From assembly GCA_040757115.1 (NCBI GenBank), contig JBFLYA010000067.1, positions 1-18,325 on the forward strand: a stretch of DNA of 18,325 bases, written 5' to 3'. The position numbers were made by a program, and so were the translations under genes. Every line of letters starts with the position of its first letter. Position 1 is the stretch's first letter. Below the pieces are notes generated by a model. It saw only the letters and a program-made list of their open reading frames with translations. It was not told the origin of the DNA and made no database searches. This stretch comes from a bacterium (GTDB lineage: Bacteria; UBA9089; CG2-30-40-21; SBAY01). Below are positions 1,276 through 11,346 of this stretch, one piece after another.

Positions 1276-4197
1276 TCATCTCTCTCCATGCAAAATAAAT
1301 GGTGCCCAGTAGAAGGGGTTAGGGTATTTTTTCTTTATCTCATTGCGGGCGAGTCTTAATGCCTCTCCTCGGGTCTTACCCTGTTTCAGGTGTTGATAAA
1401 ATAACTCCATATACTCTCCAGTCTCTTTTGATGCTACCTCCCAGAGGCTTACGAGAACACTCCTTGCTCCTGCGTGTTGAAATGCCCTGGCAAAGTTCAC
1501 TACTCCCTCACCTTCCATTACCTTTCCTCTGCCAGTGAGACAGGCTGAGAGAACCACTATGTCCGCATCCAGGCTTAGCCCTAATACCTCGGTTAAGGTC
1601 AGAAATCCATCATCTTCTCCCTTGTTTTCAACTTGTCCAAGGAGTAAGAAGGGTTCTTTTATGCCCTGCACCTTACCTGGTAAATCAGCATGGGTGGCAA
1701 AGTGGAGATAACGATAGTTTTTGAGTGTAGCCTTACGCAGGTTTGTCTCATTGGCATAGATATTTAATAAAACATCAGGGGGTTCTGATTTTACACCAAA
1801 AAGTCCTGCAATTGCTCTGACCTCGTCCTCTGTCTCAGGAAGTGGAATGAAAAACATCCCTTTGCCTTCTTTATCATCCTTACTTGTTTTTCCCCACTCT
1901 CGTCTTGTCGCAAGTCCTCGATAGGCATATTGGGCCAGATTCTGGGTCAGCAAGGTAGGTTGTGGTTGCCCTTTTTTATAAGCGATGTAACGAGGGTCAT
2001 TCTTATCATAAATGGGATTCCCAAGGGCAAATAAGATTTTAGAAGCCTGAGATGGTTTGAGCATACGGTTTAAGGCAAGGATTGATGCTGATTGGCAATA
2101 TGTTGTCTTATACTTATCACCTACATAAAGGCTATCTCGATAATCCTTTCCTGTGCTTATTACCAGTGCCTCAAAGGGAAGTAGTCCTAATATGCCATCA
2201 GGGATGATAATAATCTCTTTATCGGGTGATATGCCTTTTAATGCATCTTCTAAGAGAAGACAATAGAGGCTTTGACCAAGGAAGGGAGAAAAATCTTCTT
2301 GGGTATATGGGCTTTGCAAGGGCAAGACAAACTCCTCAACCAATGCCTCTATCCCTTCTTTATCTTTGGGAATCTTTATCAGTCTCTCTACCTTTCCTTT
2401 ACTCACCACAAAGAGATATGTGGCATCATCGCATATAGCATACTCCAGAAGAATCTCATTCTCCTTTAGAGGTAATTCCTCAACCGGAATAGGTTTTGGG
2501 TAATTTAGGCTGGCATAGCGTGGGTATTCCCTTCTCATATTTGAGATAAGCACATCAAGTTCCTTCTTTAAAGTTTCCTTCCTCTTTACCCATTCCTTAA
2601 ACACATCCTCACCCTTTGTATACATCTGTGTCCATTGCTCTTCTATGGCAGAGAGTCTATTCAGGATGTCTTCCTCTTTGTTTTTTATCTCAGGAGGTAG
2701 TTCTGACTTAAAGTATCCTCTAACTGATTCGGCGATTGCCTCAAGCAAAACCCTTGCCCTGGTTGATTCAGCAAAGTAAAAGCTCGTGGATAAGAGGTCT
2801 TTGCCATAAGGCTTAAACCTTTCATCTATTGTTTCTCCCGTGATTACCCTTTCTGAGAGGGTAGAGATAAGCCCTTTATATGACCTGATTCTTCCACCAT
2901 AATAACCTGCCCCAAAGAATCCTGCTTTCTCTCCTTTGATTCTCGCTCTCATTTCCTCAGAGATGGATACTGCCTGAAGGAATTCAGCTGATGCCTCCTT
3001 GAATTTACCCATCCCTTTTAATCCCAGACCATTCTGGGTATAAACCTGGATACGATATGGGTCAGCAGTATTCCATTTTGGTGCCATTTCCTTAAGGAGG
3101 TTTAATGCCTCATTATGCCTTCCGGTAGCAATATAAAGCTCAACAAAACCAGATCTTCCTTTTGCCTCACTGAAATACTTTTCAGCCTCTTTATATCTTT
3201 TTTGAGATAGGTAAATATCACCAATATTATTCAGGCTTATGGCGATATCCTGAGGAATATTGAGTTCTTTTCTTATCTTCAATGCCTCCTCAAAGTAGCT
3301 TAATGCCTTCTCATACTGACCAAGGAAGTAGTAAACATAACCGATATTATTCAGGCTTGTGGCGATATCCTGAGGGATATTGAGTTCTCTATATATCTTC
3401 AATGCCTCCTCATAGTAGTTCAATGCCTTTTCATACTGACCAAGGGAGGAGTAAACAGCACCGATATTATTCAGGCTTGTGGCGATATACTGAGGGATAT
3501 TGAGTTGTCTTCTTATCTTCAATGCCTCTTCATAGTAGTTCAATGCCTTTTCATACTGACCAAGGGAGTCGTAAACAAGACCGATATCATTCAGGCTTAT
3601 GGCTATATACTGAGGGATATTGAGTTGTCTTACTATCTTCAATGCCTCCTCATAGTAGTTCAATGCCTTATCATACTGACCAAGGTGGTGGTAAACAAGA
3701 CCGATATTATTCAGGCTTATGGCTATATACTGAGGGATATTGAGTTCTCTATATATCTTCAATGCCTCCTCCAAGTAGTTTAATGCCTTTTCATACTGAC
3801 CAAGGGAGCAATAAACAAAACCGATATTATTCAGGCTTGTGGCGATAGATTCTGGTGATAGATTGTTTTCTCTTTTTATCTTCAGTGCCTCCTCATAGTA
3901 GTTCAATGCCTTCTCATACTGACCAAGGGAGTTGTATACATAACCGATATCATTGAGATTTGCCGTAATAACCCGAAGATGATTTAAATCACGACAAATT
4001 TTTAATGACCTTTCATAATACGCCAGTGCTTCCTGATACCTTCCATATTTCTTTGCTTCCTTTCCCTGATTGTAAAGTCTTAGTGCTTTGTAAAGTCTTA
4101 GTGCTTCATCTACTGACTGTGAAAAGGTATTTCCCCAACACCCTATTACAAACAAAGCAATGAATAAAATGAATAAAGTAATTATTTTTCTCTTCAT
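1276..4197 (-). CDS. TPR-CHAT lipoprotein, caspase-like peptidase
   Basis: This 973-aa protein begins with a hydrophobic signal ending in lipobox VIGC (Cys20), so it is predicted to be exported and lipidated. Residues about 43-348 form eight tetratricopeptide-like units. Five in the middle (residues 118-317) are exact 40-residue units of the kinesin-light-chain type. Residues about 415-590 are a helical linker. Residues about 600-973 form a CHAT domain, including IIPDGILGLLPFEAL, LHFATHA and VVLSACLTG. The expected catalytic His (His836, or His832) and Cys886 are both present, so it should be an active cysteine peptidase. The start has a good AAGGAGG site at 4208-4214, ten bases from the ATG. 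It is the last gene of the minus-strand cluster and is separated from the DUF4384 gene by a repeat-rich leader. The substrate is unknown. The TPR part probably recognises partner proteins. Confidence 0.93.
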   Translation of the reverse strand: MKRKIITLFILFIALFVIGCWGNTFSQSVDEALRLYKALRLYNQGKEAKKYGRYQEALAYYERSLKICRDLNHLRVITANLNDIGYVYNSLGQYEKALNYYEEALKIKRENNLSPESIATSLNNIGFVYCSLGQYEKALNYLEEALKIYRELNIPQYIAISLNNIGLVYHHLGQYDKALNYYEEALKIVRQLNIPQYIAISLNDIGLVYDSLGQYEKALNYYEEALKIRRQLNIPQYIATSLNNIGAVYSSLGQYEKALNYYEEALKIYRELNIPQDIATSLNNIGYVYYFLGQYEKALSYFEEALKIRKELNIPQDIAISLNNIGDIYLSQKRYKEAEKYFSEAKGRSGFVELYIATGRHNEALNLLKEMAPKWNTADPYRIQVYTQNGLGLKGMGKFKEASAEFLQAVSISEEMRARIKGEKAGFFGAGYYGGRIRSYKGLISTLSERVITGETIDERFKPYGKDLLSTSFYFAESTRARVLLEAIAESVRGYFKSELPPEIKNKEEDILNRLSAIEEQWTQMYTKGEDVFKEWVKRKETLKKELDVLISNMRREYPRYASLNYPKPIPVEELPLKENEILLEYAICDDATYLFVVSKGKVERLIKIPKDKEGIEALVEEFVLPLQSPYTQEDFSPFLGQSLYCLLLEDALKGISPDKEIIIIPDGILGLLPFEALVISTGKDYRDSLYVGDKYKTTYCQSASILALNRMLKPSQASKILFALGNPIYDKNDPRYIAYKKGQPQPTLLTQNLAQYAYRGLATRREWGKTSKDDKEGKGMFFIPLPETEDEVRAIAGLFGVKSEPPDVLLNIYANETNLRKATLKNYRYLHFATHADLPGKVQGIKEPFLLLGQVENKGEDDGFLTLTEVLGLSLDADIVVLSACLTGRGKVMEGEGVVNFARAFQHAGARSVLVSLWEVASKETGEYMELFYQHLKQGKTRGEALRLARNEIKKKYPNPFYWAPFILHGER
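3247..3846 (-). repeat. Five tandem 120-bp coding repeats (TPR units)
   Basis: Within the TPR-CHAT gene, five consecutive 120-bp units encode residues 118-317. They have the consensus IA.SLNNIG.VY..LGQYEKALNYYEEALKI.R.LNIPQ. Diverged units flank them on both sides (about 4000-3847 and 3246-3150). Nucleotide identity between units is high by eye. Differences concentrate at a few codons: the residue after NIG, the two residues after VY, and the residues after EALKI. Confidence 0.9.
4071..4106 (-). repeat. 18-bp perfect tandem duplication
   Basis: TGTAAAGTCTTAGTGCTT occurs twice in direct succession at 4071-4088 and 4089-4106. It creates the ALRLYKALRLYN duplication just after the lipoprotein signal of the TPR-CHAT protein. 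The reading frame is kept. Confidence 0.9.
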
Positions 4198-4207
4198 TTT
4201 TTTATAA

Positions 4208-4214
4208 CCTCCTT
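4208..4214 (-). promoter_or_regulatory. Shine-Dalgarno site of the TPR-CHAT gene
   Basis: AAGGAGG on the minus strand, ten bases before the ATG at 4195-4197. It supports the chosen start, which also preserves a full lipoprotein signal. Confidence 0.85.
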
Positions 4215-4235
4215 ATAAAAGTAGCCATTTCCAGA

Positions 4236-4325
4236 GTGGAAAAGTTTCCACCTGTGCGGTTAGATTAACCTTCCTCACATCTTTTAAAACCACGAACGAC
4301 CCACAAGTGGGTACCCCGGAAGGGG
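4236..4325 (-). other. Cluster of four short perfect hairpins upstream of the TPR-CHAT gene
   Basis: Four small inverted repeats follow one another in the leader. They are GTGGAAA/TTTCCAC (4236-4251, two-base loop), GGTTA/TAACC (4258-4270), ACCCAC/GTGGGT (4299-4312, AA loop) and CCCC/GGGG (4314-4325, with a GGAA loop of the GNRA type on the plus strand). They may form a structured 5' leader of the CHAT mRNA or be part of the dispersed repeats around them. None has a T-tract typical of an intrinsic terminator. Confidence 0.5.
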
Positions 4326-4353
4326 ATGAAGAATTATAAACCAAATCGTAACT

Positions 4354-4578
4354 ATTCAGCCACAGATGGACACGGATGAAACACGGAAAAATCGGTGAGG
4401 CGTGTTCGGTATCCGTGTCTGTAATCAGGCTGAAGGCTGAAGGGCTTTTCTTCTTCTAACTTCCACCTTCCTTAATCCCCCGCCAGCGGGGGACATCTAT
4501 CTCTACCCTCTGCTTTCTCGCCCCTTGCATCTTGTCTTCTACTATCTGCTATTTATCCGTGTTAATCTGTGGCTGAAT
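4354..4578. repeat. Inverted CACAGAT/CACGGAT repeat pair
   Basis: ATTCAGCCACAGATGGACAC at 4354-4373 (continuing GGATGAA) faces its complement at 4553-4578 (TTATCCGTGTTAATCTGTGG, continuing CTGAAT). The 26-bp arms differ at about three positions. Between them are a simple GGCTGAAGGCTGAAGGG run and a perfect hairpin TCCCCCGC/GCGGGGGA at 4476-4493. No gene is seen in 4198-4735. Confidence 0.75.
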
Positions 4579-4582
4579 AATT

Positions 4583-4620
4583 ACATTTTCTTCGTGGTCT
4601 TCGTGCCCTTCGTGGTTTAT
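4583..4620. repeat. CACGAAG heptad array, right arm
   Basis: TTCTTCGTGGTCTTCGTGCC followed by CTTCGTGGTTTAT is the complement of CACGAAG units and resembles the right arm at 1200-1230. A short partner, AAACCACGAA, lies at about 4287-4296 in inverse orientation. The whole intergenic block therefore looks like one heptad-bounded unit with a second repeat nested inside. Confidence 0.6.
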
Positions 4621-4666
4621 CTTAATCGCATTAGTGACCATCCTATTGGTTAAATATAGCAAGATT

Positions 4667-4686
4667 ATAACCATTATAATGGTTAT
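4667..4686. promoter_or_regulatory. Perfect 20-bp palindrome (operator-like or weak terminator)
   Basis: ATAACCATTA is followed directly by its exact reverse complement. It sits about 50 bases past the stop of the DUF4384 gene (4736) in the direction of transcription. It has no T-tract and is AT-rich, so it is a weak terminator candidate. It could instead be a dimeric regulator site ahead of the TPR-CHAT gene. Confidence 0.4.
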
Positions 4687-4735
4687 TTGTCAAGTTAAAT
4701 CGCAACCACCAGTAGCTATTTTCATTTTTTTTCAC

Positions 4736-5530
4736 TCATCTATGCTTAAATTGATACATTCCGAATACCAGACCTGGTAATTTATCTGTTACCTGGTCAT
4801 TATGAATTAAGTGCGAAACGAGTTTTTCTGTCAAATCTCTTTTGTAAGTCAGTTCTCTTTCTGCATTCAGTCTGGCAGTTAATTCTTCCAGTCCCTCCTG
4901 TCTCCACCTTGAAGCTACCAGGTATATCTTCTCTGTCCCGGGTATATCGTCTAAGGAAAACCAATTAGCGTCATTGGGAATTCGTAGTGGTCCTGGTGGT
5001 ATAGGATTAGGTGTTGGGATATCTTTACCTGGAAAGAGTTGTTTTAAGACTCCAGAGCTATTTAATTGAAAGATATAGAGATAACAATAGTCAGATGCAT
5101 AAGTTGTCAGGTAATAAGGGTCATTGCTGGTTAGGATTAGGGTATCAGATGGAGTTTTAGCGGTAACAAATCTCTTTTGAGCAGGCAGGTAATGGAATTT
5201 GGAGTCAACCTTAAGTTCATCCATTAACAGGGAGTAGAGATTCTTTAGTGAGGCATCCTCGGGATTTGTCTTAAGCCTTTGGTTAAGTTTTGTTATGGCT
5301 GTATCGTAGTCTCCAGATACAATCATTTTATATATTTGTTCAGTGGAAACAGATGTGGTTTTCAGCCATTGTTTATTGACTGGTTTTGGTAATTTAAGGC
5401 TGGCTTTCTTAAGCCAATATCCTCCAGAGACTATGAGCAAAACAGCGATTGCTATTGGCAAGACGACTTTCATCATCAGCCTTTTTATTTTATCCCAGAA
5501 TATCATTTGCTGTAATGGAGTTCCAAACAT
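4736..5530 (-). CDS. Membrane-anchored TPR/DUF4384-like protein
   Basis: This 264-aa protein has a short basic N-terminus and one transmembrane helix at about residues 21-38. A TPR-like pair of helices follows at about 63-105 (EQIYKMIVSGDYDTAITKLN). Residues about 128-210 form a DUF4384-like domain, recognised by YCYLYIFQLNSSGVLKQLFPG, the Pro-rich middle and the PGTEKIYLVASR ending. DUF4384 domains are often found near or fused to caspase-like peptidases; their function is unknown. The predicted topology is N-in with the TPR and DUF4384 parts outside the cytoplasm. That places it in the same compartment as the TPR-CHAT lipoprotein encoded next. The Shine-Dalgarno sequence CAGGAGATA lies in the repeat starting at 5535, about eight bases from the ATG. 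It shares the DUF4384-like domain with the gene at 8705-9829. Confidence 0.85.
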   Translation of the reverse strand: MFGTPLQQMIFWDKIKRLMMKVVLPIAIAVLLIVSGGYWLKKASLKLPKPVNKQWLKTTSVSTEQIYKMIVSGDYDTAITKLNQRLKTNPEDASLKNLYSLLMDELKVDSKFHYLPAQKRFVTAKTPSDTLILTSNDPYYLTTYASDYCYLYIFQLNSSGVLKQLFPGKDIPTPNPIPPGPLRIPNDANWFSLDDIPGTEKIYLVASRWRQEGLEELTARLNAERELTYKRDLTEKLVSHLIHNDQVTDKLPGLVFGMYQFKHR

Positions 5531-5589
5531 AATAGTATCTCCTGATTGTAACTGTTCACCGCAGAGACACAGAGACGCAGAGAAGAAAA

Positions 5590-5838
5590 TTAAAATTTAT
5601 GGACGATACGCTTAATCCCATCCTTGATTTTCATCAGTGCAAGCTTTTGAGAACAGATTAATGTAACACTTTTAGCCATCTGAAGTGGAATCATGGTAAT
5701 CAGTTATCGGTAATCGGTTATCGGTGACCGATTACCTGATTACCGACCACCGATTACCCGATTACCTTATGGTCACCATGTCCTATGTATTACCATGATG
5801 TCCTCAATAATCTTTTCTGTTATCTGATTTATTTCCAT
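5590..5838 (-). pseudogene. GxxExxY gene remnant, copy 1 (N- and C-terminal ends only)
   Basis: On the minus strand ATG at 5836-5838 begins MEINQITEKIIEDIMVIHRT, which resembles the usual GxxExxY start (MEI..ITEKIIG.AIEVHR). It hits a TGA at 5773-5775. After about 100 bases of palindromic repeat, the frame VTLICSQKLALMKIKDGIKR followed by IVHKF ends with TAA at 5590-5592 and resembles the family C-terminus. The middle of the gene, including the nuclease-like core, is missing and seems replaced by the repeat at 5690-5799. This is clearly not a functional gene. Identification is from memory of the family consensus. Confidence 0.7.
5690..5799. repeat. Nested palindromic GATTACCG/CGGTAATC cluster (also at 6036-6145)
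   Basis: An outer 11-bp inverted pair ATCATGGTAAT (5690-5700) and ATTACCATGAT (5789-5799) encloses a run of repeated CGGTAATC, CGGTTATC, CGATTACC and GATTACCG units (about 5697-5767). On a single strand these could fold into several alternative hairpins. The cluster sits where the middle of the GxxExxY gene should be. The second copy is at 6036-6145. Confidence 0.8.
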
Positions 5839-5935
5839 ATCTTCTCTGTTCCTCTGCGTCTCTGCGGTGAATTACTATCTGTATCTCCTGATTGTAACTG
5901 TTCACCGCAGAGACACAGAGACGCAGAGAAGAAAA

Positions 5936-6184
5936 TTAAAATTTATGGACGATACGCTTAATCCCATCCTTGATTTTCATCAGTGCAAGCTTTTGAGAAC
6001 AGATTAATGTAACACTTTTAGCCATCTGAAGTGGAATCATGGTAATCAGTTATCGGTAATCGGTTATCGGTGACCGATTACCTGATTACCGACCACCGAT
6101 TACCCGATTACCTTATGGTCACCATGTCCTATGTATTACCATGATGTCCTCAATAATCTTTTCTGTTATCTGATTTATTTCCAT
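5936..6184 (-). pseudogene. GxxExxY gene remnant, copy 2
   Basis: This is an exact copy, 346 bases on, of the remnant at 5590-5838, with the same N-terminal and C-terminal fragments and the same internal palindromic insertion. It lies in the second unit of the tandem duplication. Confidence 0.7.
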
Positions 6185-6232
6185 ATCTTCTCTGTTCCTC
6201 TGCGTCTCTGCGGTGAATTACTATCGGAACGG

Positions 6233-6961
6233 TTACAAAAATAGTTTCTTAAATGCATCTTCTGTTTCAGCTCGTTGATAAAAGTGGTCGTCAGTAATTT
6301 TCAGTTCTGCTGAGCTAAAGATATCTACCCAGGTATTGACAATGTTTTTAAATTCCTTTCTTCCTGAGGCATTAACATAAAGACAATAAACCTCTGTATC
6401 TATGGGAAACCTTAAATCATCGGCATCCTGAAGTCTTGGTGGCCAGGGATACTGAATCATATCAGAAAAGATGATGATTGTATTACGATAATTACCTTCT
6501 TCTCTGTTTAAGAAGTGGGCGGTATGATATAAGGCACCTAAGATATCCGTTCCTTTATAAACCTCCTGGCGCCTGGTTAATTCTTGCACAGCTTTACTTA
6601 TCCTTGTCTTTTCTTGTATTGCCTGCAAGGTAGCTTCATTAAAGGTCTTTAGGGGAATCCTTACATCATCAATATCAAAGCCATGCTCATCAATCCCAAT
6701 CACGCAGAACTTATCACCAGGCTGAATCTGGTTTACTATCCGTCTAACCCAGGGGACGACCTCTGGCCAAAACATAGTGATTTGCCCTTGTGAGCTGTGC
6801 AAGGCAAAAGAATCTGTCTCATCTACTAAGACAATCACAAATCGGGGTTTTTCTGGTTGTTCCAATCCACCACATCCTGCTAATAACAGAAGAGGAATGC
6901 AGATACCTAATGTTGTTTTAACTATGGGCAGAAAACGATGGATTTGTGAAAAAGTCTTCAT
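6233..6961 (-). CDS. VWA-domain-like lipoprotein
   Basis: This 242-aa protein has a signal peptide ending in lipobox LAGC (Cys30), so it is probably lipidated outside the cytoplasm. The rest resembles a von Willebrand factor A fold. FVIVLVDETDSF (Asp47, Thr49, Ser51) corresponds to the DxSxS metal site, with Thr for the first Ser. KGTDILGALYHTAHFL supplies the MIDAS Thr (Thr138), and IIIFSDMIQY supplies the Asp (Asp167). The metal-binding set therefore looks nearly complete, suggesting divalent-cation-dependent protein binding. It starts 19 bases after the stop of the membrane coiled-coil gene and has a good AAGGAGG site at 6971-6977, so the two are probably cotranscribed. Its partner could be the coiled-coil protein or the TPR-CHAT protein; this is inference. 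Confidence 0.82.
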   Translation of the reverse strand: MKTFSQIHRFLPIVKTTLGICIPLLLLAGCGGLEQPEKPRFVIVLVDETDSFALHSSQGQITMFWPEVVPWVRRIVNQIQPGDKFCVIGIDEHGFDIDDVRIPLKTFNEATLQAIQEKTRISKAVQELTRRQEVYKGTDILGALYHTAHFLNREEGNYRNTIIIFSDMIQYPWPPRLQDADDLRFPIDTEVYCLYVNASGRKEFKNIVNTWVDIFSSAELKITDDHFYQRAETEDAFKKLFL

Positions 6962-6980
6962 TGGTGACTACCTCCTTTTT

Positions 6981-8651
6981 TTACCTTTTGCCCCAGTTCC
7001 ATGGTAATAATAAAGATAGATATTTGAGATTGTATTTCCATAGTAAACCTTTAAGTGTCTTCCTATGGTGGTTTACAGTCTCCTTTACCTTCCTGGTCCT
7101 ATCTTCAACCGCCTTATATGGAGCCGTTGCTATCGCTGGGGTATATTGGTTAAATTTTTCTCTTAGTTCCTTCAGAGTTTTACTGAGATTTTCCAGGTCA
7201 GTTTCTATCCCTAGAAGTTTATTAGACCGGACATTATTAGTGATTCTGTGGGATGTATCCAGGATATTTTCTGCACTTTCTTTTATCTTTCTATCCGAAG
7301 CCTTTGTCTCTTCTAATAAGCTCTCCAAATCCCTTCTTTGGTGATGAGGGATAACTGAAGACGGTGTTTGGACTCCGAGCAATATATTACTTATCTCCTG
7401 AGCGATGTTCTTTAAATCAATATGTAAGGGTGAAGAATCTAACTTCAGCAAATCCGTTTCAGCATCTACAAGTTTAGGTCCAAAGTCATTTTTAAATCTA
7501 TTTACTGTATCTTCCCATGTTTTTAGGGAAACAAACTGCACAACCTCTGGCAAAAATCGCTCAATCTCTTTATTCTGGTCATCTATCTCTTTATTAGCTT
7601 TTTTCACCGTCTTTTTTACCTGCTTCAATGAGCGCCAGTCATTAGCTTCTTCTATTCCCTTATCTATGTTATCTATCCTTGCGTCCCATTGTTTTATCTT
7701 GTTTTCAAATTGTCCTATTTTCTGTATCGGTTCATCAAAACTCTGAATTTTTTTCCCTAATATTTCGTTAGATGTTATCTCCGTCTTTAGTTCGTTAGTA
7801 TCTTTCTTCAATTTTTCAACCTTCTTTTCTAACTCATTAGTCTCATTCTTTAAGTCGGTTACCGCCTGGGGCACTTTCTCCCTCTGATGAATAATAACAG
7901 GTTTAGGAGATACACATACCCACCAAACGCCTATACCCCAGACTGAAACCATTAATCCGCCAAACCAATACAGACCAACTTTGACCATTGGCTCTATGAA
8001 TTGTCCGAAACCAAATGTGCCAGCAAGAATCTCACCGATAGGGACAAAGAGACCAATAATCCCTGCTAACCATGGGCCATATTTAGATATTATTATATCC
8101 ACCTGTGTAGGTGAGATTGGTATTTCGCCAGCATTCAATAGATATGCCCGCCAAATAGCAAGCCCTGCTTCACAAACAATTGATAAGGCAATCAGGATGA
8201 AGAGACAAATCTTTGCAAGTTTGGTCCAGAAGGTTTCGGCTCTGATAGCTTTAAATATTACCCCAAAGACTGTCTGAGTAATTGCCCAGAGAAAGCCCAT
8301 TATTAAAGGGAAGACAGAGTAAGTTCCTACCCAGGGGAGGGGAATTCGTCTTCCACCACCAGGAAAGACCATTTCTAAAACCTGTGCCAATATAAGCACA
8401 TTCAAGGCAATAAGAAATGGCCAGAGTAAGGCACAGAGAAATCCTACAACCGAGGCACCTTGTGGTAAATGGTGGAATAACTCGCCTGCTTTTCTCCACC
8501 AGCGGCTTCGATTGTCACATCCCCATTGACAACTATCCCGATTAAAGGGGAAGTACTTATTAAATAACCAGAAAAACCGTTGAATCAAACCGAGCACGAT
8601 AATTACTATAAAGGGTAGCGAAACCCAGATTTTAAAATCAGAAATCTCCAT
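6981..8651 (-). CDS. Polytopic membrane protein with long coiled-coil tail, function unknown
   Basis: I do not recognise this 556-aa protein. The first half has about six hydrophobic helices (roughly residues 8-28, 67-93, 110-135, 145-170, 192-214 and 225-250). Between the first two lies a small Cys/Trp-rich loop (DSCQWGCDNRSRWW). From about residue 265 to the end it is charged and heptad-like (NELEKKVEKLKKDTNELKTE and several later stretches), which predicts extended coiled coil. With six helices and an N-in start, the coiled coil would be cytoplasmic; one helix more or fewer would place it outside. AGGAGG lies ten bases before the ATG. It sits between the S16/DUF4384 gene (53-bp gap) and the VWA gene (19-bp gap). 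A scaffold or mechanosensor-like role in the same complex is plausible but unproven. Confidence 0.8.
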   Translation of the reverse strand: MEISDFKIWVSLPFIVIIVLGLIQRFFWLFNKYFPFNRDSCQWGCDNRSRWWRKAGELFHHLPQGASVVGFLCALLWPFLIALNVLILAQVLEMVFPGGGRRIPLPWVGTYSVFPLIMGFLWAITQTVFGVIFKAIRAETFWTKLAKICLFILIALSIVCEAGLAIWRAYLLNAGEIPISPTQVDIIISKYGPWLAGIIGLFVPIGEILAGTFGFGQFIEPMVKVGLYWFGGLMVSVWGIGVWWVCVSPKPVIIHQREKVPQAVTDLKNETNELEKKVEKLKKDTNELKTEITSNEILGKKIQSFDEPIQKIGQFENKIKQWDARIDNIDKGIEEANDWRSLKQVKKTVKKANKEIDDQNKEIERFLPEVVQFVSLKTWEDTVNRFKNDFGPKLVDAETDLLKLDSSPLHIDLKNIAQEISNILLGVQTPSSVIPHHQRRDLESLLEETKASDRKIKESAENILDTSHRITNNVRSNKLLGIETDLENLSKTLKELREKFNQYTPAIATAPYKAVEDRTRKVKETVNHHRKTLKGLLWKYNLKYLSLLLPWNWGKR

Positions 8652-8704
8652 CGTCTTTTAACCTCCTATTTTAGTTATCGCATCAAATTATATTTTTTCT
8701 CACC

Positions 8705-9829
8705 TCAATCTATGTGTTGGAATCTAAATTCTTTATAAAAATCTACCATCTTTTGAATGGTTTCCTTTCTTTTTTCCACAGGTAATACCTTTAACTTCTC
8801 TGAAAACAAATTGTTAGATGAGCGACTGGAGGCAAGAAAATAAAGCTTTTCTTCTCCTGTTTTCTCATCCAGATAATAGCAGGTATCCTCTGATGGAATC
8901 CAGTAAGATACACCTTCCTTAAGTGGATTTGTTTCCCTACTATATTTAACATTAGGGAATAAAATATCGAACTTACCCGAAGAGTCAATCTGGTATATAT
9001 AGAGATAACATTTAGTATCAGGTTTAATCTTAAACTGATAGTTATCTTTAGAGCTAAGAGAGAGATTTGAATTACTGTCTTCTTCTATAAGGTTTAGATA
9101 TTGATGTTGTGGATTGTAATAATGGAATTCCATTTCCTGAAAACTAAAGGGTTTTTTACTCACATTGTTTCCTAATACCCGATATCCAATTATAGCTAAA
9201 GCCATTATAGCCATCAAGATTAGCAGATATTTTCTGCCTGGCTTTTTATCAGGAGAACCATCGGGGATTCCCTTCAAAAGTGATTCTATTGCCTCCTTTA
9301 CTGTAGATACAGGTATAGCCTCTATCTGGCTTGTCATTATCCTTTCTCTTAGATTGCTATCTATCTCTGCATCATTTTCCTTAGGATAGAATATCTTATC
9401 ACCCTTCTTTAAGATGCCAAGAGTAGATTGGAGTTTTTCGTTTATTCCGTTTACCCTTTTTACTACGGCGTCGGCAGTTGAGTCTGAAATTACCCCTGTG
9501 GCAGAGATGGAGAATGGTAAAGGGTTGCCTTTCTTTCGACAAATTTCTTCCGCAAACTTAAGTGAGAATGCTAACCCTGCACTTTCGCCAAATGCCTTAG
9601 AAGGAGCTAAATCCTTAAATTCGTATGAAACAGCTTGTTTTTTGTTCTCTATCAATATTCTTCTATCTCTGAGGATATGATAAACCGAGATAGTCCCCTT
9701 CTTAGCTGAAGCTTCTATTTGTAAGTTATCTTGATTAATCACAAAAACCTCTATTGGTTTATCTGAAAAATAAGACCCCATTAACAACTCACTTATTGTG
9801 TTATCCTCAAATAGAGCAAATACACCCAT
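8705..9829 (-). CDS. Lon-like (S16) protease domain fused via TM helix to DUF4384-like domain
   Basis: This 374-aa protein has three parts. Residues about 1-185 resemble the Lon proteolytic domain without its AAA+ ATPase. GESAGLAFSLKFAEE carries the expected nucleophile (Ser83), followed by ISATGVISDS. RVNGINEKLQSTLGILKKGD carries the expected Lys (Lys132) in a LonB-like GxNxK context, then FYPKEND and a closing VKEAIESLL. A transmembrane helix follows at about 201-219. Residues about 262-336 form a DUF4384-like domain (CYLYIYQIDSSGKFDILFPN ... EEKLYFLASSR). The S16 part is thus predicted cytoplasmic and the DUF4384 part outside. The gene starts ten bases after the 126-aa gene, and its GAGGT ribosome site overlaps that gene's TGA, implying tight coupling. 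Whether it cleaves substrates without an ATPase partner is unknown; ATP-independent Lon-like proteases do exist. Confidence 0.8.
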   Translation of the reverse strand: MGVFALFEDNTISELLMGSYFSDKPIEVFVINQDNLQIEASAKKGTISVYHILRDRRILIENKKQAVSYEFKDLAPSKAFGESAGLAFSLKFAEEICRKKGNPLPFSISATGVISDSTADAVVKRVNGINEKLQSTLGILKKGDKIFYPKENDAEIDSNLRERIMTSQIEAIPVSTVKEAIESLLKGIPDGSPDKKPGRKYLLILMAIMALAIIGYRVLGNNVSKKPFSFQEMEFHYYNPQHQYLNLIEEDSNSNLSLSSKDNYQFKIKPDTKCYLYIYQIDSSGKFDILFPNVKYSRETNPLKEGVSYWIPSEDTCYYLDEKTGEEKLYFLASSRSSNNLFSEKLKVLPVEKRKETIQKMVDFYKEFRFQHID

Positions 9830-9839
9830 TTATTATACC

Positions 9840-10220
9840 TCAATCTTTAGGTTTGACGAAGAGCTTTTTAAGGTCAATATCTCTTATCTTTTTAACCTTC
9901 TGCGCTACCCTTCCTGAAACAATTTTCCCTTCAAGGAAGACCTCTCCTTTATCATTTGTAACTATTATACTTCTTCCCTCAATCTGGTTCTGATAAGGTT
10001 CGCTAACCTCCACAGTAATGAGTCCGTTTTCTGGCTCATCGATATTCTCTCTGAGTGCCAATCTATATTTCTTTCCTTCTGTATAAATGCTCATCATTCC
10101 CTGGAACTCTGTCGATGCCATTTTGGGCAAGGCTATGTCCCAGACTATAGCCTCTCTTTCTTGTTGCTTCCATTGTCCCCATAAAGTTAAAGCTTCATTT
10201 AAGGTTACCTCTCTTTTCAT
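9840..10220 (-). CDS. Hypothetical 126-aa soluble protein between sigma factor and S16 protein
   Basis: I do not recognise a family. It has no signal peptide or transmembrane helix, so it is predicted cytoplasmic. It opens with a short helix (VTLNEALTLWGQWKQQER). The middle looks like beta strands (YRLALRENIDEPENGLITVE, RSIIVTNDKGEVFLEGKIVS), and the tail is basic (VKKIRDIDLKKLFVKPKD). A GGAGGT ribosome site lies six bases before the ATG. It follows the sigma factor gene by 47 bases and leads into the S16 gene with a coupled start. Its position suggests a sigma-factor regulator or an adaptor or substrate of the S16 domain. This is inference from gene order only. Confidence 0.75.
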   Translation of the reverse strand: MKREVTLNEALTLWGQWKQQEREAIVWDIALPKMASTEFQGMMSIYTEGKKYRLALRENIDEPENGLITVEVSEPYQNQIEGRSIIVTNDKGEVFLEGKIVSGRVAQKVKKIRDIDLKKLFVKPKD

Positions 10221-10267
10221 TTTACCACCTCCGTTGGATAATTAGATAATATGTTCGGAACACGAAT

Positions 10268-10987
10268 CTAAAGGACATCTATCATTGACCACCCTTTCTT
10301 CTCCATACACTTCTTCAATATCTGCTTAGCTTTTTTTTCTTTCCTCTGAGTAGTAGGTATAGACATACCTAATGTTTCAGCTACCTCTTTTAGTGTTTTC
10401 CCTTCTACATATCTTTGTTCGATTATTTTCTTCTCTATTAAAGGGAGTTGTTCAATACATGAATTTAAAGCTCTGACAATTTCTTTCTCTTCTAATTTCT
10501 GACCAGGGCGTTTATTTCCAGTAGGGATTATATCTGAAATCTCAACCTCCTCTCCGTTCTTTGTAAAAATGGGAGTATCAAGTGATATGAAGACCAAATG
10601 CCAGGATTCTATTTCCTTTACTTCTTTTTCAGAAATACATAGTTTTTCAGCCATCTCTTTTCTAGTCGGCTCCCTACCAAGTGCTTGAGCAAACTCTTCC
10701 TTTATTCGTTTATATTCACTCAGTTTTTTTCTCTTTTCTGGAGGAAGATAATCCGACTTTCTCAAAAAATCTCTGATAGCTCCGTTAACACGATAGAAAG
10801 CATAGGTAGTAAATTTAGCACCTTTTTCAGGATTAAATGCCCTCGCTGCTTCTACCAAACCTAAGAGGGCTTCCTGAATAAGGTCATCTCTCTCCACTTT
10901 TACTCCACAGTTAACTAATTTTGGATATACCGCATTAACTTTGGAGATTGCCCAGTGATAGTACTTTTCTATTTTTATCTCTTCCAT
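10268..10987 (-). CDS. Sigma-70 family RNA polymerase sigma factor (FliA/SigB-like)
   Basis: This 239-aa alternative sigma factor has recognisable regions 2, 3 and 4 and no region 1.1. Region 2 spans about residues 8-78 and includes DDLIQEALLGLVEAARAFNP and the FTTYAFYRVNGAIRDFLRK promoter-melting segment. Region 3 is about 88-160 (GREPTRKEMAEKLCISEKEV). Region 4 is about 172-226, with a helix-turn-helix KTLKEVAETLGMSIPTTQRK. The size and three-domain layout fit the FliA/SigB/SigF type rather than ECF. It heads the minus-strand cluster behind a sigma-A-like promoter at 11043-11071. The ATG has no clear Shine-Dalgarno sequence, and a stop lies eight codons upstream with no better start. Its targets are unknown; they may include genes for the envelope system it heads. 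Confidence 0.95.
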   Translation of the reverse strand: MEEIKIEKYYHWAISKVNAVYPKLVNCGVKVERDDLIQEALLGLVEAARAFNPEKGAKFTTYAFYRVNGAIRDFLRKSDYLPPEKRKKLSEYKRIKEEFAQALGREPTRKEMAEKLCISEKEVKEIESWHLVFISLDTPIFTKNGEEVEISDIIPTGNKRPGQKLEEKEIVRALNSCIEQLPLIEKKIIEQRYVEGKTLKEVAETLGMSIPTTQRKEKKAKQILKKCMEKKGWSMIDVL

Positions 10988-11042
10988 AATTTTATTATCG
11001 TTTAGATTTTAATTTTTTCTCACACAAAATCTGCTCTTAATC

Positions 11043-11071
11043 ATTATACTAAAAAATCTCATTCTTGGCAA
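11043..11071 (-). promoter_or_regulatory. Sigma-70-type promoter of the sigma factor operon
   Basis: On the minus strand TTGCCA (11071-11066) is followed after exactly 17 bases by TATAAT (11048-11043). Transcription should start near 11036, giving a leader of about 48 bases before the ATG at 10987. Confidence 0.75.
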
Positions 11072-11092
11072 CATTAAAGTTTGTTTTTCAGA

Positions 11093-11221
11093 AATTCTCG
11101 GTGAAAAATTAGATAGAGACTCATTATTCTTTATTTTCCTCTCAAAATATTTACGAAAAATATTTTTCTCTATCTCTCCTCAACATAGGTGAATTCAGTC
11201 TCTAAAAATTCACCGAGAATT
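11093..11221. promoter_or_regulatory. Mirror-image 13-bp elements in the divergent promoter region
   Basis: TTCACCGAGAATT occurs facing outward on both sides: minus strand at 11105-11093 and plus strand at 11209-11221. Each copy is followed by exactly 21 bases and then the -35 hexamer of a divergent promoter. A second matching pair, AGTCTCTA, lies inside (minus 11121-11114, plus 11197-11204). Two AAATATTT palindromes (11145-11152 and 11158-11165) lie at the centre. The element's centre falls near -63 relative to each expected start, a place typical of upstream activators. Confidence 0.7.
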
Positions 11222-11242
11222 GCTGCATAAAAGGAAAAAAAC

Positions 11243-11271: not shown

Positions 11272-11346
11272 ACTTATCGCAATTATTAAATTACATTAAC
11301 TCACTTCCAAAAATTCTAAAGTGGTTGTTAATGATAACAAGAGGTT

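Follow-up and report, generated by a model that had tools for sequence, protein, structure and literature searches.

What kind of system sets a sigma factor beside a membrane-anchored protease of the Lon type, and continues behind the pair with genes for proteins predicted to face the cell envelope? The question is raised by a seven-gene cluster in an 18,325-nucleotide stretch of DNA (the window), which is the whole of contig JBFLYA010000067.1 (C67) in the 4.3-Mb assembly GCA_040757115.1 of a bacterium from an uncultured phylum (lineage UBA9089; CG2-30-40-21; SBAY01). An earlier reading of the letters alone, here the original prediction, had proposed an undescribed envelope proteolysis and signalling system led by the sigma factor, and we recovered all seven open reading frames at the same coordinates and in the same order, all on the minus strand. 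Proteolytic release of sigma factors is a main route by which a remote signal is linked to transcription in bacteria. To our knowledge, the only case in which a Lon-type protease performs this release is the CRISPR-linked Calp system. The reading that we favour, tentatively, is that the cluster encodes an envelope-sensing proteolytic sigma switch, in which the sigma factor is combined with a small partner protein and a membrane-anchored S16 (Lon-type) protease with a DUF4384 sensor.

The central component is the product of gene 3 (8705-9829). Pfam and NCBIfam gave no S16 match in this protein; however, its N-terminal 190 residues match the protease domain of Archaeoglobus fulgidus LonB (AfLonB) in phmmer searches (E-value 0.002-0.006) and a small Lon alignment in hhalign (88.5%, score 44.6). 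Ser83 in a GESAG motif and Lys132 in an NEK motif align with the Lon catalytic dyad and are invariant in an 11-row alignment with Lon proteases. At the level of sequence, the original assignment of this domain to S16, with the dyad intact, holds. A single transmembrane (TM) segment at residues 202-220, detected by hydropathy, separates it from a DUF4384 domain (Pfam PF14326, 4.9e-14, 52.6 bits against a cut-off of 27), and no AAA+ unfoldase domain recognizable by Pfam is fused to it. As one TM segment lies between the two domains and the protein lacks an N-terminal signal, the S16 domain is most likely cytoplasmic and DUF4384 most likely outside the membrane. An AlphaFold model of the protein made without an alignment reached a predicted local distance difference test (pLDDT) score of 36. 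In a second model, built from 20 sequences, DUF4384 forms an Ig-like beta-sandwich with pLDDT of about 90, and the S16 half scores about 26-67, mostly below 60, which is too low for its fold to be compared. Matches of the DUF4384 model to RhoGDI, GbpA and Wzt (Foldseek and VIA; Z up to 8.7) were set aside as reflecting the common Ig-like arrangement and as no proof of function.

Gene 1 (10268-10987) stands 438 bp upstream of gene 3, so that a sigma factor is encoded beside the protease. Its 239-aa product matches the Pfam sigma-70 regions r2, r3 and r4 (r4 at 1.7e-11, r2 and r3 better) and is of the FliA/WhiG type, its matches lying under the curated cut-offs (TIGR02479, 4.7e-39); its best solved relative is 6pfv, which we take to be a WhiG complex. 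Between the two genes lies gene 2 (9840-10220), encoding a 126-aa protein with no TM segment and no family assignment, a candidate regulator or substrate from its position only; searches of plasmids, Pfam, NCBIfam, PADLOC and PDB sequences gave no match to it above chance. As the original prediction had it, genes 1-5 are tightly packed, with successive gaps of 47, 10, 53 and 19 bp. The single promoter that it had placed ahead of them can be located directly upstream of the sigma gene (candidate sigma-70 promoter TTGCCA-17-TATAAT, minus strand, 11043-11071, 11 of 12 consensus positions), although sigma-70-like consensus matches are no commoner in the window than expected by chance (50 observed versus 54 expected). 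The FliA-type promoter consensus does not occur in the window with two or fewer mismatches allowed, and an Rfam search returned nothing at the gathering score.

The pairing of a protease with a sigma factor, which the original prediction had found suggestive, is not a chance of this one locus. Searching 386 genomes with gene 3 returned DUF4384 proteins, one of which, in G254, is encoded close to a three-gene run whose third protein begins with the pattern GDS..LAYLLAL / CTG / GF..KL / LF.VP and continues into nSTAND1 and WD40 domains. A search with this N-terminal domain led to three more loci in G386: one is a TIR fusion, one an NB-ARC-TPR fusion, and in the third the rest of the protein is similar (4e-227) to the nSTAND-WD40 portion of the one from G254. 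The two genomes are recorded as KSB3 DOLJORAL78 and UASB270, the latter presumably Ca. Vecturithrix of the phylum Moduliflexota. The KSB3 cassettes (L056:10544-15414, L069:6657-10723, L070:9088-15343 and L071:6311-10874) all have the S16-like domain in their third gene. A profile search added cassettes of a further lineage in the related genomes G146 and G282 (L086:14067-16547 and L087:2949-5219), whose third gene encodes an S16-like domain followed, as in the window, by a TM segment and then by an unknown C-terminal part; downstream of these two cassettes are genes for apparently exported proteins. The catalytic Ser and Lys are invariant in all seven of the S16-like domains. One profile of these domains (A4) has MjLonB (1xhk, E-value 0.017) as its best PDB match; another (A3), run against the 386 genomes, matched only Lon-type proteases outside the cassettes. 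In hhalign the S16 domain of gene 3 matches the S16-like domains at 85.5%; when the profile was built without the window row, it scored 42.4, compared with a shuffle maximum of 31.4.

The second gene of these cassettes belongs to a conserved family of 187-234 aa, and its G146 and G282 members match the KSB3 ones (E-values of 1.1e-5 and 3.1e-5 in a small local database), independent evidence that the cassette is conserved in those lineages. In two KSB3 cassettes its product begins with an anti-sigma zinc finger (L070: ChrR, 1.6e-5; L071: zf-HC2, 2.9e-6). The first gene is sigma-like, resembling the extracytoplasmic function (ECF) type, in L056 (TIGR02985, E-value 0.004) and in L069, whose protein is 41% identical to that of L056; in L070, L071 and L086/L087 the scans assigned it to no family. 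On the strength of the zinc fingers and the ECF-like first genes, gene 2 would seem to encode a sigma-binding partner in some members of the cassette class at least. The window shares the layout, with an S16-like third gene preceded by two tightly spaced co-directional genes (47 and 10 bp), the first of which encodes a sigma factor. Neither the S16-like nor the gene-2 profile found a relative in viral contigs or plasmids, and our search of the open-licence literature found no account of S16-like domains associated with sigma factors and with domains of the STAND or TIR kind.

Combining these elements, we envisage that the outward-facing DUF4384 domain would detect an envelope event, perhaps with the assistance of the products of genes 4-7 (a six-TM coiled-coil protein, a VWA-like lipoprotein, a second DUF4384 protein and a TPR-CHAT lipoprotein). 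The signal would cross the membrane through the gene 3 protein, probably by oligomerization, upon which the cytoplasmic S16 domain would cleave the 126-aa protein; the sigma factor putatively held by the latter would then be released to transcribe response genes. In such a scheme the sigma factor, the 126-aa protein and the S16 domain would lie on the cytoplasmic side and the remainder on the outer side.

Several observations weigh against this proposal. The S16 domain of gene 3 is equally near to Lon proteases (score 44.6) and to the S16-like domains of KSB3 (39.5), and the sigma factors differ in type, FliA/WhiG in the window versus ECF-like in KSB3. The exact gene set of the window was found in one genome only. 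The middle link, with the 126-aa protein as the anti-sigma substrate, is the weak one: in hhalign this protein scores 17.5 against the gene-2 family of the other cassettes, whereas shuffled sequences reach 20.9. Following this shuffle test, the alignment that MAFFT forced between it and the other gene-2 proteins was rejected. The window and the cassettes of the KSB3 and L086 kinds are of the same design, with common descent not established, because the S16 domain of the window is as close to true Lon as to the KSB3 domains. With these points counted, we regard the cluster as real and accessory, and probably as an envelope-facing, Calp-like switch. A wider claim is possible, although we hold it with less confidence than the switch itself: the window may belong, as one of its branches, to a widespread class of proteolytic sigma switches that has not yet been described, in which a constant Lon-type output, cutting a small sigma-binding partner or setting it free, is joined to swappable sensors, namely SAVED (in Calp), nSTAND1-WD40, TIR, NB-ARC-TPR and the envelope-facing DUF4384.

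How many of the seven genes would take part in the switch is a separate matter, on which the strongest competing explanation bears. In it, the locus is a composite, with a sigma/S16/6TM/VWA operon lying beside an unrelated DUF4384 and TPR-CHAT pair in a repeat-rich accessory region, the proteases serving separate pathways. The original prediction had joined all seven genes in one system, and here it fared less well: the same seven-gene order was sought in other genomes and found in none of those searched. Gaps of 702 and 538 bp precede genes 6 and 7, and two features of these intervals had been overlooked. The 702-bp gap, between the VWA and DUF4384 genes, contains duplicated repeat DNA, two identical 300-bp non-coding stretches with 346-bp spacing (5535-6180) with relatives among the repeats of contig C85 and of G001, a genome of the same genus and the closest sequenced relative. 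The TPR-CHAT gene has its own perfect sigma-70 promoter in the interval behind gene 6 (TTGACA-18-TATAAT, minus strand, 4664-4693), the sole 12/12 match in the window. With repeats occupying the first gap and a perfect promoter in the second, genes 1-5 are likely one operon, TPR-CHAT is likely a separate transcription unit, and a single operon of all seven genes is probably not the case. Against a composite origin stand the location of all seven genes on one strand, the absence from G001 of CHAT together with the three of the five operon genes that were searched there (S16, 6TM and VWA), and the paralogy of the two DUF4384 copies, which are 33% identical (E-value 3.5e-10). On this evidence we consider a composite locus a serious possibility, although less likely than not.

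The main argument for retaining genes 6 and 7 is that the pairing of DUF4384 with CHAT fits a recurrent habit of DUF4384 to occur with clan-CD proteases. Gene 6 (4736-5530) encodes a protein with one N-terminal TM segment (hydropathy), a TPR-like part that rests on weak matches and a DUF4384 domain (Pfam 3.3e-8, 33.9 bits versus the cut-off of 27). The product of gene 7 (1276-4197) is a TPR-CHAT protein with a lipoprotein-type signal, in which the CHAT domain (8e-57) retains the motifs HFATHA (832-837) and LSACLTG (883-889). The cluster does therefore contain, as first noted, two proteases with intact catalytic residues, the one without an N-terminal signal predicted inside and the other, a lipoprotein, outside. 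DUF4384 also adjoins a caspase-type protease in L016, L055, L057 and L048/L063 (in the last a caspase-like motif was recognized by eye only) and lies near TPR-CHAT pieces in L056; the association that the original prediction drew within this one locus is thus found elsewhere, and the literature, too, records DUF4384 in orthocaspases (PMC6426788, PMC7475262). The L016 locus (L016:11532-14988) is in the same genome as the window and has another DUF4384 gene upstream of, and on the same strand as, a caspase-domain gene. Membership of genes 6 and 7 in the system is uncertain.

Gene 4 (6981-8651) encodes a protein with six TM segments, according to hydropathy, and a long C-terminal coiled coil. An excess of Lys and Arg in loops 1 and 3 weakly suggests that it may have both termini out, with the coiled coil outside the cytoplasm. 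No homologues were found in the 386 genomes except for weak coiled-coil matches, and matches to ZorA, SMC and Rad50 were attributed to coiled-coil composition. The description of gene 5 (6233-6961) as a VWA-like lipoprotein stands as regards its MIDAS-like (metal ion-dependent adhesion site) DETDS motif and its lipoprotein-type signal with the lipobox LAGC; its VWA_2 match (E-value 0.0017), however, falls below the cut-off. Single-sequence searches of genomes, plasmids, phages and viral contigs with the S16-DUF4384, 6TM and VWA proteins yielded nothing beyond DUF4384 itself, some weak matches to coiled coils, a single VWA protein sharing 27% identity and a flagellin (L006), the last of which was rejected as spurious. 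At L060:2626-7371 a gene for a VWA protein weakly similar to gene 5 adjoins one for a 1042-aa protein that appears tubulin-like by eye.

The distribution of the cluster bears on two further explanations. To its right, an AsmA gene is 95% identical to that of G001, and this identity (about 95%) gives way at position 11302 to no similarity on the left. The cluster looks like accessory DNA, because the S16, 6TM, VWA and CHAT genes have no match in this closest relative and the identity ends at that point; the S16, 6TM and VWA genes, which were the ones searched, are likewise missing from each of 18 further genomes of the phylum. The empty site is only partly visible, since the G001 contig stops 143 bp past the break, and the genes may instead have been lost from G001. 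Just upstream of the operon promoter is a dispersed repeat of about 140-150 bp with terminal inverted repeats (11076-11225), resembling a miniature inverted-repeat transposable element (MITE). Its inverted arms are 30 nt long with the ends AATTCTCGGTGAA, and about 15 near-full-length copies (92-99% identity) occur in the genome and one in G001. In L016, too, the DUF4384 gene has a copy immediately upstream.

Such an accessory distribution is compatible with an anti-phage system, in which envelope damage by a phage would trigger proteolysis by S16 and CHAT and thereby a sigma-driven or lethal response. This explanation overlaps with the envelope-sensing switch and differs from it in the nature of the signal. 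The related cassettes carry TIR, nSTAND1-WD40 and NB-ARC-TPR, and a role in defence is documented for both CalpL/CalpT/CalpS and TPR-CHAT (PMC11417357, PMC10028731). Yet the window contains no recognized defence gene, the only PADLOC matches with any strength concern TPR repeats, the coiled coil or a generic sigma domain, and most of the window proteins are predicted to face outward; we judge a defensive role rather unlikely. Envelope quality control, with S16 and CHAT degrading proteins inside and outside the membrane, respectively, the sigma factor regulating the set and S16 having no signalling role, agrees with the usually degradative function of Lon domains and with the predicted envelope-side location of the DUF4384 and VWA domains, but is improbable given an S16 domain without a fused AAA+ unfoldase domain, the fusion of S16-like domains elsewhere to nSTAND1, TIR and NB-ARC rather than to Lon-type unfoldases, and an accessory, not core, distribution.

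Returning to the envelope-sensing switch, we compared it with known systems. The VMAP/MoxR-VWA ternary systems differ in that no AAA+ ATPase, the MoxR partner, is found among the cluster proteins. In the orthocaspase-DUF4384 proteins, as in the window, DUF4384 is either fused to a clan-CD protease or adjacent to one; here a DUF4384 domain also shares a polypeptide with an S16 domain and a TM segment. Type III-E Craspase (Cas7-11, TPR-CHAT, Csx30 and RpoE), with which the original prediction had drawn a parallel, has in common with the window a TPR-CHAT protein and the presence of a protease at the same locus as a sigma factor. However, Craspase TPR-CHAT is cytoplasmic and bound to Cas7-11, while the CHAT protein of the window is an exported lipoprotein encoded outside the sigma operon, and no Cas7-11 was found among the window proteins searched. 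The parallel is weaker than that with Calp, because CHAT is exported here whereas in Calp it is the Lon-type protease itself that cuts the anti-sigma factor (PMC11417357). Kaur et al. 2021 described caspase-EACC2 proteins with variable C-termini encoded beside ECF sigma factors (PMC8195603). These EACC2-caspase/ECF sigma/DUF1822 neighbourhoods resemble the window in having a constant protease component, variable C-terminal domains and a sigma link, with S16 here in place of the caspase; scans of the window and of S16-like cassettes gave no match to either caspase or DUF1822. The KSB3 cassettes are alike in their sigma-like or unassigned gene, small protein and S16-like fusion with the catalytic Ser and Lys kept, and differ in that their fusions are to nSTAND1-WD40, TIR or NB-ARC-TPR and that their gene 2 is different or has diverged beyond recognition.

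In the CalpL/CalpT/CalpS system, composed of a Lon protease, an anti-sigma factor and an ECF sigma factor and associated with type III CRISPR, binding of cyclic tetra-adenylate (cA4) to the SAVED domain makes CalpL oligomerize and its Lon-type protease cut the anti-sigma factor (PMC11417357), which gives the proposed switch a precedent from experiment. The window shares with it an N-terminal Lon-type domain joined to a C-terminal sensor (putatively so here), a small partner and a sigma factor. It differs in having TM-DUF4384 instead of SAVED as the C-terminal part, a sigma factor of the FliA/WhiG rather than the ECF type, and a 126-aa gene between sigma factor and protease, whose anti-sigma role is only putative. 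CalpL was not among the PDB chains matched by gene 3, and no cas gene turned up in a search confined to the proteins of the window. On paper, the window is Calp-like in how it would work and, because SAVED is absent, not a member of Calp. Should the wider class of switches prove real, the KSB3 loci would link TIR and STAND sensors to transcription, the window would add a sensor facing the envelope, and Calp would become one case of a general design, the branch captured by CRISPR within a broader family that keeps watch on the cell envelope as well.

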